This document shows positions 28,769 through 56,619 of a stretch of 64,000 nt of DNA, one piece after another. The stretch is from Faecalibacterium taiwanense (GTDB taxonomy: Bacteria > Bacillota > Clostridia > Oscillospirales > Ruminococcaceae). The DNA lies in assembly GCF_036632915.2 (NCBI RefSeq), contig NZ_CP155552.1, forward strand, positions 682,001-746,000. Direction: 5' to 3'. A program made the position numbers and the translations under genes. The notes below the pieces were generated by a model, which saw only the letters and a program-made list of their open reading frames with translations, searched no databases and was not told the DNA's origin. Every line of letters begins with the position of its first letter. The stretch's first letter is position 1.

Positions 28769-29056
28769 CAACAAATGCGCAGATGGGAAAAAGTACCACA
28801 CGATCCCCACTGTTCAGAGAGCTGCCGTCTGGTGCAAGGCAGTCAGTGCTTCGTGCGGAAAATCATCCCGGAGCAGCCTGCCCAACGGGTGCAAAACCCT
28901 TGTAAGCAGCGCCGGTTGCAGCCGTTACCGTGCAGGGCTTTGTTGGAAGCCCGTGAGAGGGTGTGCACAGCACGCCAACGAGAGTGGTACCGCAGAGAGC
29001 TTGATGATCACAAGGTCTTTGTCTCTTGATAACAGGGGACAAAGGCCTTTTCTTTT
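28769..29056 (+). ncRNA. T-box leader, isoleucine type, upstream of ilvB
   Basis: The antiterminator bulge reads AACGAGAGTGGTACCGCAG (28977-28995), the T-box consensus complementary to the tRNA acceptor end. A competing terminator pairs AAGGTCTTTGTCTC (29012-29025) with GGGACAAAGGCCTT (29036-29049) and ends in Ts. Stem I shows the AAAAAGTA loop-E side, the AGAGAGCTG/GGTGCAAGG apical features and GAAAATCAT on the 3' side. There the likely specifier is AUC followed by A, which means Ile. The specifier call rests on manual folding. Confidence 0.88.
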
Positions 29057-45842: not shown

Positions 45843-46154
45843 AAAAGGCTCTCGTCTTTCAAGGCGAAAACCTTGAGAGACGAGAGCCTGTAAAGTTCAA
45901 ACTACAGGGCACCCGTGGTACCACTCTCTTTGCTGCGCCTTTGGGCACAGCCGCTTTGCACGATCGGCTTTTTGCAGCGAATCGCTGTCCTTGTAACGGT
46001 GGACATCCGTCAGAGCCTACTTGTGTGTTCAGCCCTGCCGCTCAGGGGCCAGTAACCGAAACCCTCTGCACCTGCCTTGCACCACCCGGCGGCTCTCTGT
46101 ACGCAGAAGAAAATCGTTTTTTCCCCGTCAACGCATTTGTGCTTTTTTCAAAGT
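45843..46154 (-). ncRNA. T-box leader, leucine type, upstream of leuA
   Basis: On the minus strand GAGAGTGGTACCACGGGTG (antisense of 45909-45927) is the T-box motif. The terminator pairs AGGCTCTCGTCTCTCAAGG with CCTTGAAAGACGAGAGCCT and ends in TTTT. Stem I shows GGGGAAAAAACGA, ACAGAGAGCC and GGTGGTGCAAGG. On its 3' side, just before the CCCC that closes the stem, lies TACTGG, where CUG followed by G reads as a Leu specifier. That call is from manual folding. Confidence 0.87.
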
Positions 46155-54693: not shown

Positions 54694-54928
54694 CGAAAAA
54701 ACTCCTTTGATGATAAAAAAGAACGCTACCATAATAAACGATTTGCAGGGCGTTTGCAAGGAATAGCTTTAGTATAACAATAAAATTTTAAGGTTTTATC
54801 AATGGAAAAATAAAAATTTTCGAAGAAGCAGAAGTGTTACTCCTGTTGGAACTGCACAACGGGATGCTGCAAATGCGGGCTGCGCATCGTGCAGAAAACT
54901 CAATTTGAAAAAAACTGGAATTAACCTA

Positions 54929-54957
54929 TTGACAAACTGGGTAAGAGAGAATATAAT
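54929..54957 (+). promoter_or_regulatory. Promoter of the metY leader
   Basis: Consensus TTGACA (54929-54934), 17 bases, TATAAT (54952-54957). Upstream 54760-54928 holds nothing I can support. Confidence 0.85.
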
Positions 54958-55085
54958 GCAAACAATAAATCCACAAACCTAGTGGGAAAAAGAAAGCAAA
55001 GGTTTTGCTTCCCGGTACAGAGCAGATAGAGGCGCCGGTTTGTAGATGAGTGGGAAAGAGTTTTACGGGAAAGGAGGGCACGGAT

Positions 55086-55217
55086 ATGAAGCTGATTTGG
55101 AACGACCTGCTGCATGCAAACTTCCGCTGTGGGCGAATGTGCGGTGACCGGGCAGAACATCTGGCTGTGAACTGTACGATGCCCTCTTGCTGTGCACGAA
55201 TGTGTACCCGAATGTGA
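55086..55217 (+). CDS. Putative Cys/Met-rich leader peptide of metY (43 residues)
   Basis: ATG 55086 has AAAGGAGG with an 8-base spacer. The peptide starts MKLIWNDLLHANFRCGRMCG and ends MPSCCARMCTRM. It has six Cys (15, 19, 30, 35, 36, 40) and five Met (1, 18, 32, 39, 43), 11 of 43 residues, ten of them in the last 29. TGA ends 30 bases before the terminator stem. Cysteine is a direct product and methionine the end product of the pathway served by MetY, so stalling at Cys or Met codons could sense their charged tRNAs. Function is inferred from composition and position only. Confidence 0.62.
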   Translation: MKLIWNDLLHANFRCGRMCGDRAEHLAVNCTMPSCCARMCTRM

Positions 55218-55247
55218 CGTTGACAGAATCGCTTTGAATTGTGTTTG

Positions 55248-55283
55248 CCCGATGCGCTTTTGTATCACGCATCGGGATTTTTT
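55248..55283 (+). terminator. Attenuator terminator before metY
   Basis: CCCGATGCG (55248-55256) pairs perfectly with CGCATCGGG (55268-55276), followed by ATTTTTT. It lies 46 bases before the metY ATG. Confidence 0.85.
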
Positions 55284-55329
55284 GTATCAGAAAATTATAC
55301 TATAAGTACAAATAGAGAGGTAAAATACT

Positions 55330-56619
55330 ATGTCTAACTATAAATTTGAGACCCTGCAGCTTCACGTTGGCCAGGAGCAGGCCGATCCCGCAACCGATTC
55401 CCGTGCAGTGCCTATCTATCAGACCACTTCCTATGTGTTCCGCAACAGCCAGCACGCAGCAGACCGCTTTGGTCTGGCAGATGCCGGCAACATCTACGGC
55501 CGTCTGACCAACTCCACGCAGGACGTGTTCGAGAAGCGCATCGCTGCTCTGGAGGGCGGCGTGGCTGCTCTGGCAACCGCCTCCGGTGCCGCTGCCATCA
55601 CCTACACCATCGAAGCACTGGCACAGGCCGGTGACCACATCGTGGCTCAGAAGACCATCTACGGCGGCAGCTACAACCTGCTGGAGCACACCCTGACCCA
55701 GTTCGGTGTCACCACTACCTTTGTCAATGCACACGATCTGGCTGAGGTGGAGAATGCCATCCAGCTCAACACCAAGGCCGTCTATCTGGAAACTCTGGGC
55801 AACCCCAACAGCGATATCCCCGATATCGATGCCATTGCAGCCATCGCGCACAAGCACGGCCTGCCGCTGGTCATCGATAATACCTTCGGCACCCCGTACC
55901 TGATCCGTCCCATTGAGCACGGCGCAGATATCGTCGTCCATTCCGCCACCAAGTTCATCGGCGGCCACGGCACCACGCTGGGCGGCATCATCGTGGACAG
56001 CGGCAAGTTCGACTGGAAGGCAAGCGGTAAGTTCGGCAACATTGCTGACCCCAACCCCAGCTATCACGGCGTTTCCTTTGCCGATGCAGCAGGCCCCGCA
56101 GCTTTTGTCACCTACATCCGTGCGATCCTGCTGCGTGATACCGGTGCCACCATTTCGCCGTTCAACGCCTTCCTGCTGCTGCAGGGTACCGAGACCCTGA
56201 GCCTGCGCATCGAGCGCCATGTGGAGAACACCAAGAAGGTAGTCGAGTTTCTGGCAAACCACCCGCAGGTGGAGAAGGTCAACCACCCCTCCCTGCCGGA
56301 TCACCCGGATCACGCCCTGTACGAGAAGTACTTTCCCAATGGCGGTGCATCCATCTTTACCTTCAACATCAAGGGCGGCCGCGAGGAAGCATTCAAGTTC
56401 ATCGATAACCTGAAGATCTTCTCCCTGCTGGCAAACGTTGCTGATGTGAAGAGTCTGGTCATCCACCCGGCTTCCACCACCCACAGCCAGCTGAATGACG
56501 AAGAGCTGGCCGAGCAGCAGATCTATCAGAACACCATCCGCCTGTCCATCGGCACTGAGCACATCGACGATATCATTGCTGATCTGGAAGCAGGTTTCGC
56601 AGCCGTCCGCGGCGAGTAA
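55330..56619 (+). CDS. metY: O-acetylhomoserine sulfhydrylase / aminocarboxypropyltransferase
   Basis: 429 residues. N-terminal FETLQLHVGQEQADPATDSRAVPIYQTTSYVF, YGRLTNSTQDVFEKRIAALEGG, the PLP-binding Lys in VHSATKFIGGHG and the substrate Arg region TTHSQLNDEELAEQQI near the C-terminus. This is the 420-430-residue MetY form, longer than MetB/MetC. It makes homocysteine from O-acetylhomoserine and sulfide. AGAGAGGTAAAATACT precedes the ATG. Confidence 0.95.
   Translation: MSNYKFETLQLHVGQEQADPATDSRAVPIYQTTSYVFRNSQHAADRFGLADAGNIYGRLTNSTQDVFEKRIAALEGGVAALATASGAAAITYTIEALAQAGDHIVAQKTIYGGSYNLLEHTLTQFGVTTTFVNAHDLAEVENAIQLNTKAVYLETLGNPNSDIPDIDAIAAIAHKHGLPLVIDNTFGTPYLIRPIEHGADIVVHSATKFIGGHGTTLGGIIVDSGKFDWKASGKFGNIADPNPSYHGVSFADAAGPAAFVTYIRAILLRDTGATISPFNAFLLLQGTETLSLRIERHVENTKKVVEFLANHPQVEKVNHPSLPDHPDHALYEKYFPNGGASIFTFNIKGGREEAFKFIDNLKIFSLLANVADVKSLVIHPASTTHSQLNDEELAEQQIYQNTIRLSIGTEHIDDIIADLEAGFAAVRGE

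Follow-up and report, generated by a model that had tools for sequence, protein, structure and literature searches.

Putative regulatory elements upstream of metY

How is metY controlled in Faecalibacterium taiwanense? Sulfur amino acids in Firmicutes are thought to be governed mainly by S-box riboswitches, T-boxes and repressors, SAM-I (S-box) riboswitches and T-box leaders controlling methionine and cysteine genes by termination. For the metY gene of the stretch analyzed here (64 kb, hereafter the window), the initial annotation proposed a leader peptide sensing cysteine and methionine, coupled to an attenuator, and on comparison and calculation this is the best-supported reading: the leader is probably a ribosome-mediated transcription attenuator, one that would read the supply of cysteine (and methionine).

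The gene itself (55330..56619, + strand) encodes an O-acetylhomoserine aminocarboxypropyltransferase (TIGR01326, 629.8 bits versus a cut-off of 495.1, E = 1.8e-189), and the gene upstream of its leader is oriented divergently. The promoter annotated ahead of the leader is found on the + strand at 54929..54957, with a -35 box TTGACA and a -10 box TATAAT separated by a 17-nt spacer, matching the consensus at 12 of 12 positions. It is followed, on the same strand, by a leader ORF (uORF) of 43 codons (55086..55217, ATG at 55086 and TGA at 55215-55217), which can be read directly as MKLIWNDLLHANFRCGRMCGDRAEHLAVNCTMPSCCARMCTRM and whose ribosome site, AAAGGAGGGCACGGAT at 55070..55085, is strong; the GAGGGCA within this site, termed segment A, is able to pair with a downstream segment C. 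Direct reading also confirms the six Cys codons (15, 19, 30, 35, 36, 40) and five Met codons (1, 18, 32, 39, 43), that is 11 of 43 codons, ten of them in the last 29. The end of the uORF, CGA ATG TGT ACC CGA ATG TGA (55197..55217, + strand), contains two further CGA-Met units beyond codons 17-18, and the same CGA ATG TGA closes most of the short uORFs ending in GRM-stop that are discussed below. The intrinsic terminator is likewise borne out (55248..55283, + strand): its 9-bp stem, with arms CCCGATGCG (55248-55256) and CGCATCGGG (55268-55276), starts 30 nt past the uORF stop and is followed by T6 (55278-55283).

The 64-kb window has 19 ORFs that start with ATG, span 20-80 codons and follow a Shine-Dalgarno-like sequence, and of these the uORF has the highest share of Cys plus Met (binomial P = 1.3e-4 from six-frame frequencies, uncorrected for the number of ORFs); conservation among relatives is a better control than this chance test. 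A known small-protein family was dropped as an identity for the uORF after seven of the peptides were scanned against NCBIfam and Pfam, which returned nothing relevant (one chance NCBIfam match, E = 0.099).

Conservation of the leader within Faecalibacterium

A MetY with 70% identity or more is encoded in 16 of 31 same-genus genomes (L002-L017, L002 being the window's own), the others having only MetY paralogues of at most 48% identity. The alignment of these leaders that the initial annotation had called for shows the uORF open, and its ribosome site and the terminator kept, in 15 of 16 cases (L002-L015 and L016), and the frameshifts it had named as evidence against translation are seen in none of the 15 intact leaders. 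The exception, L017, has a short ORF ending in KRMCQARM.

Codon conservation, counted in 14 of these peptides with L016 set aside, is uneven. All 14 have Met18, Cys30 and Met39, while 13 have Cys15, 11 have Met43 and 10 have Cys40, so that part of the emphasis on ten late Cys/Met codons stands; Met32, Cys35 and Cys36 (each kept in 4 of 14) and Cys19 (3 of 14) are poorly conserved. The peptides contain between two and six Cys each, and the Cys/Met richness of the window is thus partly confined to a few strains, over a conserved core. The one peptide without Cys15 belongs to a strain of the same species (L005), which has Tyr at both 15 and 19, and we count this strain against the attenuator.

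A leader family with a covarying antiterminator

We surveyed 80 metY loci from public contigs, many of them MAGs whose taxon labels may err, and found that metY is also preceded by related uORFs in records carrying the labels Oscillospiraceae, Lachnospiraceae, Treponema and others; the leader system is thus not peculiar to Faecalibacterium. A test combining a pattern with a ribosome site accepts 75 of 184 leaders, near-duplicates counted, and misses some that are visible by eye (L016, L017, L077, L093, L114). The uORFs fall into three types. Type I encodes MMCCRM..SRA..MAG; in type II, LLRxNFRxGRM is continued either by Cys codons or by the RA block of type I; type III ends in NFRxGRM-stop or nearly so, with no obvious terminator before metY. 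The window's leader is of type II with a type-I attenuator. The MetY proteins of L041-L119, from records labelled Clostridia and Treponema, are 84-92% identical to that of the window, and some of them come with related leader peptides; gene and leader may possibly have been transferred horizontally among these records.

The initial annotation named no antiterminator, and one is found that covaries in relatives. Its 5' strand, segment B (CCGGGCA, 55148..55154, + strand), is defined by covariation and modeling; pairing tests define segment C (TGCCCTC, 55180..55186, + strand) as the complement of the uORF ribosome site; and segment D (TTTGCCCGATGCG, 55244..55256, + strand) contains both TGCCCG (55246-55251), which can pair with B, and the terminator 5' arm. 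In the window the B:D pairing joins CGGGCA (55149-55154) to TGCCCG and comprises 6 bp only. The anatomy shared by the family is usually a Cys two codons before CGA-ATG, then CCGGGC pairing with GCCCGG in the terminator 5' arm: type I and part of type II have CGAATG, eight nucleotides and CCGG(G/A), with the complement in that arm, and a second, inner helix of the attenuator pairs ATGGC with GCCAT. In a table of 33 leaders, chosen by CGAATG and therefore having Arg-Met at codons 0/+1 by construction, Cys stands at codon -2 from CGA in 28, and codon -3 is Met in 17 and Arg in 14. RM peptides without B and D, from Treponema and others, are kept outside the attenuator model.

In 23 leaders from outside Faecalibacterium, 94.8% of the cells of the B:D helices are paired, versus 16-49% when the strands are slid, and six pairs show changes on both sides. 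Each leader's own B:D pairing is stronger than permuted ones (-36.8 versus -32.5 kcal/mol, 0 of 20000 as strong, n=32), as is its own A:C pairing, both overall (-14.3 versus -12.0 kcal/mol, 0 of 20000, n=33) and without Faecalibacterium (-13.3 versus -11.7 kcal/mol, 2 of 20000, n=25); relatedness is not taken into account in these permutations, whose counts should not be read as probabilities. The A:C letters covary in relatives, for example as AGGCGTGA/TCACGCCT in L126, and pair poorly in 4 of 41 leaders (L043, L070, L108, L127).

A covariance model of the same 23 leaders, R1, matches 15 of the 16 leaders of the genus, L017 being missed. It finds the window's at 55119-55283 (23.5 bits, E = 0.0015), the weakest match in the genus having 18.1 bits (E = 0.02) and the best other match 11.7 bits (E = 0.46). 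The simple pattern CGAATGN8CCGGGC occurs within the genus at 21 places, 15 at metY and six elsewhere, the reversed pattern giving seven. Of the six, two represent a single genuine second leader, also matched by R1, and four have no R1 match; in the window's genome the sole place is metY. A repeat CGAATGTG..CGAATGTGA is present in 8 of the 31 genus genomes, with one match each, by coordinates always directly upstream of metY, and is thus not a general motif.

Ribosome position and the proposed mechanism

We masked a 27-nt ribosome codon by codon and computed the probability of B:D pairing once D is made, in 31 leaders (41 minus eight near-duplicates, and minus L016 and L070, whose terminators are unusable). 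From codon -9 to codon -3 relative to CGA the mean probability is 0.80-0.87; it is 0.91 and 0.94 with the A site at codons -2 and -1, 0.83 at CGA and 0.44 at Met. Between +2 and +10 it does not exceed 0.03, and it returns to 0.78-0.90 at +12 to +22. With the stop codon in the A site it is 0.73 (0.27 in the full-length RNA, where the terminator has 0.70), and in the naked RNA 0.82 (0.39 at full length). Full-length values at -2 and -1 are 0.56 and 0.58. The curve for the 31 leaders is a plateau with no sharp peak, and together with the return of B:D once the ribosome is past B, this makes the outcome depend on timing, which lies outside the calculation; the attenuator model requires timing, as do classical attenuators. 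The seven Faecalibacterium leaders have a more distinct maximum at -1 (0.27-0.60 at -9 to -3, then 0.66, 0.80, 0.73 and 0.37, and no more than 0.03 at +2 to +10). In the window itself, once D is out, the probability is 0.05 at the Cys15 codon and 0.78 at -1, followed by 0.31 and 0.42; in its full-length RNA B:D has 0.00 and the terminator 0.92-0.99, so that the antiterminator, losing to the terminator at full length, would have to act kinetically. A placement of the stall codons such that a stalled ribosome frees and a moving one covers the antiterminator is therefore seen for the family, the window's Cys15 giving only the 0.05 noted above.

From the ORF, the promoter, the terminator and the codon positions, together with the pairings kept in relatives and the genes that follow, we infer a course of events in which the uORF would be translated and its ribosome would decide the fate of metY transcription, with cysteine or methionine as the dominant amino acid. 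The ribosome would translate the uORF behind RNA polymerase. Short of Cys- or Met-tRNA, it would wait near codons 15-18 (Cys-Gly-Arg-Met), leaving segment B free to pair with D as soon as D is made; the 5' strand of the terminator would then be taken and metY transcribed. With good supply, the ribosome would be over B while D is made, D would pair with the downstream arm, and transcription would stop. After termination, segment C could cover the uORF's own ribosome site, so that the finished leader would not be retranslated. Judged by its position relative to the antiterminator, the likeliest sensor is the core TGT GGG CGA ATG (Cys15-Gly16-Arg17-Met18, 55128..55139, + strand). The late Cys codons (30-40) are second-line candidates: all the aligned genus peptides have Cys30, and segment B is free again with the ribosome there, the Faecalibacterium B:D values at codons +12 to +21 being 0.42-0.64 once D is out and 0.00-0.14 in the full-length RNA.

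CGA codons and the conserved peptide

The codon preceding the presumed sensing codons is selectively CGA. In 74 uORFs, Arg before Met or Cys is encoded by CGA in 94 of 125 cases, versus 17 of 242 elsewhere, and with the first Arg-Met of each uORF omitted the figure is 29 of 54 (Fisher P = 4e-14, relatedness ignored). Within the first 1200 bases of 80 metY genes the codon accounts for 27 of the 907 Arg codons, and in two genes of the window for none of 59, yet the window's uORF has three. Among the 52 tRNAs scanned out of 63 tRNA places in the genome (the 11 left out being 81-91 nt long), the Arg anticodons are ACG, CCG, TCT and CCT, without TCG, so that CGA is probably decoded by inosine wobble. 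Such decoding is slow, and inhibitory CGA-CGA pairs have reportedly been described in yeast. In the attenuator, CGA ahead of Met or Cys would probably be a slow step that helps ribosome timing.

The peptide is also conserved, which opens a different explanation. Here L-[LVI]-[RH]-x-N-F-R-x-G-R-M would stall the ribosome at or just after Met as a nascent peptide, its ligand would be a metabolite of the Met/Cys pathway, and the hungry codons would be secondary, TnaC behaving in this way toward tryptophan. We consider this rather unlikely as the main principle. In 51 distinct uORFs, chosen with [NSYEC][FYC]Rx[GDH]xM and thus with part of the motif preset, the Arg of NFR is written in six codons and the Gly in four, the peptide (LRxNFRxGRM) being kept while its codons drift, as would be expected of an arrest peptide. 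Outside what the pattern required, position -4 is Leu or Met in 45 of 51, position -2 is Arg, His or Lys in all 51, and Arg precedes Met in 48 (CGA in 44); residues kept beyond the search pattern favor a function for the peptide as such. Between R and G stand F in 18 peptides, C in 17, N in 12, Y in 2, K in 1 and G in 1, hence the Cys position is taken by another residue in 34 of 51 NFRxGxM peptides, which counts against the attenuator. The Tyr at position 15 of the same-species strain speaks for arrest. Moreover, 12 of the 75 uORFs, all upstream of metY (L072, L097, L157, L170, L171, L174, L175, L176, L178, L201, L205, L229), end exactly in GRM-stop (CGAATGTGA or CGAATGTAA; three are near-identical to a fourth); 11 of these have no Cys codon, L157 having two, and no terminator-like hairpin with a T-run is seen by eye in the printed leaders between GRM-stop and metY, a gap of about 55-110 nt. 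What argues against arrest is that the search pattern itself required part of the motif, and that in type-I leaders (MMCCRM..SRA), which have the same attenuator, no conservation of the peptide ahead of MCCRM is visible by eye. TnaC and SpeFL are arrest peptides encoded by short uORFs, and with their conserved ends they resemble this family, in particular the type III leaders with their gap without obvious terminator, although their peptide sequences differ from NFRxGRM. The conserved LRxNFRxGRM, sometimes ending in GRM-stop, suggests that nascent-chain arrest may form a second layer of the attenuator.

Other modes of control

A structured RNA, either a riboswitch or a protein-binding leader in which the ORF would be incidental, is a very improbable explanation, although CGAATG, CCGGGCA and TGCCCTC are conserved at the nucleotide level. 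The Rfam search proposed in the initial annotation gave only three weak matches over 54700-55600, all below threshold and none constituting a riboswitch or T-box, in line with its statement that no S-box or T-box is visible at metY; in 20 relative loci nothing matched over the leader, the matches elsewhere in four of them being a tmRNA, a purine riboswitch, a c-di-GMP-I riboswitch and a tRNA. Riboswitch or T-box control at metY is thus rejected on the Rfam results for the window and these 20 loci. SAM-I and T-box leaders, which work by aptamer or tRNA binding, do exist in the window's genome, only not at metY: the two T-boxes of the whole 64-kb window (28771-29029, + strand, and 45873-46140, - strand), both over the Rfam gathering score, lie far from the gene, and the genome has 15 T-box matches, 8 of them over the cut-off. 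The sole SAM-I found in this genome (L315) precedes a gene that reads as metK. The RNA from 54964 to 55284 folds no better than shuffled sequences (z = 0.02), and the frame is open in 15 of 16 genus leaders with synonymous codon drift. The 'structured 5' domain' suggested as a second input did not hold up either: the RNA 54964-55085 shows no excess stability (z = +0.51, 138 of 200 shuffles as good) and the middle of this region is missing from several relatives. Least probable of all is that the locus is unregulated, with a chance Cys/Met-rich ORF and a terminator serving another purpose, given a leader conserved across genera, its association with Cys/Met genes, and a divergent upstream gene.

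The promoter may be a site of control as well. TTGACA is present in 69 of 75 leaders having such a uORF versus 60 of 109 leaders without, and a palindrome CCTATTGACA..(T/C)(A/G)GG overlaps the -35 box in 35 of the 75 versus 17 of the 109. In the window its imperfect form, ACCTA..TGGGT at 54924..54946 (strand not assigned), emerges from the comparison of leaders as a possible repressor operator. The window's genome encodes three Rrf2-family proteins, and we presume, as a guess, that the palindrome could be a CymR-like operator, with possible CymR-like repression of the same genes.

Genes associated with the leader family

The attenuator form recognized by R1 precedes metY in 19 of the 80 public loci (15 of the 19 being in the training set); among 88 additional metY leaders sampled across the order, 7 have it. 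The pattern CGAATGN5CTCCCGGGCA gives 10 matches in 8 of 391 class genomes and none when reversed; with R1, 9 of 291 class genomes yield 13 matches and 11 of 297 family genomes yield 11, and as these overlapping samples share one place, 23 matches are distinct. The R1 filters are strict and miss the window's own weak copy, so that the lack of a match elsewhere proves no absence. We identified the downstream genes by reading, with NCBIfam run on seven proteins from six loci. Eighteen of the 23 matches precede Cys/Met genes: nine metY, five genes for MetQ/NlpA-like lipoproteins (two scanned, best matches below curated cut-offs), three genes resembling cystathionine gamma-synthase/lyase (one scanned, falling short of equivalog cut-offs), two of which are followed by what reads as a cysteine-synthase-like gene, and one C-terminal piece of cysK on a contig (L122, about 1526-1876). 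The other five precede amino-acid ABC transporters of uncertain substrate; one of the binding proteins matches lysine/arginine/ornithine families best and cystine second, all below cut-off.

Some single loci deserve mention. The L122 leader is well preserved ahead of a partial cysK, which is either a truncated gene or an assembly artefact. Near 1515 in L151, a leader found by R1 only, before an amino-acid ABC transporter, has MCCCISSRT in place of CCRM..SRA; its Cys codons are kept and CGA-ATG is lost. Another Faecalibacterium (G012) has a second leader, of type I (MMMEYGMCCCRM... / MMMEYGMCCCRMSGRRAW..., L245:1486-1642), before an amidohydrolase (TIGR01891, over cut-off), which hints at an enzyme serving sulfur amino acids. 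In L245, CCTATTGACGAAATAGG, which resembles the -35 palindrome, precedes this second leader.

Relation to known systems and significance

As far as the accessible part of the source describes them, the classical trp, his and ilv attenuators combine a short ORF, regulatory codons and mutually exclusive antiterminator and terminator (PMC13236596). All three are shared by the metY leader: the ORF has a ribosome site, an intrinsic terminator precedes the structural gene, and the exclusive antiterminator is found for the family by comparison, the window's own being weak (6 bp). Unlike trp, his and ilv, the family involves two amino acids and a CGA before the regulatory codon, serves several genes per genome in some relatives, and has an ORF end that pairs with its own ribosome site. 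Leader peptides of actinobacterial cys operons, in the portion of the source available, have their Cys codons in runs close to the stop and lack a conserved terminator hairpin (PMC1262725), and a mycobacterial experimental study of Cys leader peptides is cited in the accessible part of PMC13236596. They share with the metY leader the Cys codons ahead of sulfur genes; compared by description rather than by sequence, the metY leader differs in having Cys/Met codons before a defined antiterminator and a terminator, and in Cys codons that are spread instead of forming a run. The uORFC-8-2 motif before cysS in Rhodobacterales, which combines a terminator with a uORF whose tandem Cys codons are conserved, is alike in these two elements as far as its partial description goes, and differs in concerning one aminoacyl-tRNA synthetase gene in another lineage, with no CGA-ATG core mentioned in the accessible part of the source (PMC8632094). 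No description of the leader family was found in the literature searched, a scope outside which most subscription journals, preprints and supplements lie, and the accessible parts of PMC8632094, PMC11109978, PMC2965389, PMC1262725 and PMC13236596 do not name this leader.

With so compact a core (Cys codon, CGA-ATG, CCGGGC/GCCCGG), the attenuator lends itself to searches of any genome, and the preference for CGA ahead of the codons presumed to do the sensing bears on whether slow wobble decoding sets attenuation. More speculatively, and with considerable doubt, gut Clostridia and Treponema might share one sulfur-amino-acid leader family that joins an I:A-wobble CGA before Met or Cys to an arresting NFRxGRM chain, the barest form being GRM-stop with neither Cys codon nor terminator. 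If this two-signal reading were true, the family would include a bacterial peptide that arrests the ribosome in response to methionine or a metabolite derived from it. A leader-peptide family preceding metY, metQ-like, cystathionine synthase/lyase-like and transporter genes would add an overlooked layer to the control of sulfur amino acids in gut Clostridia that are common in the human gut.
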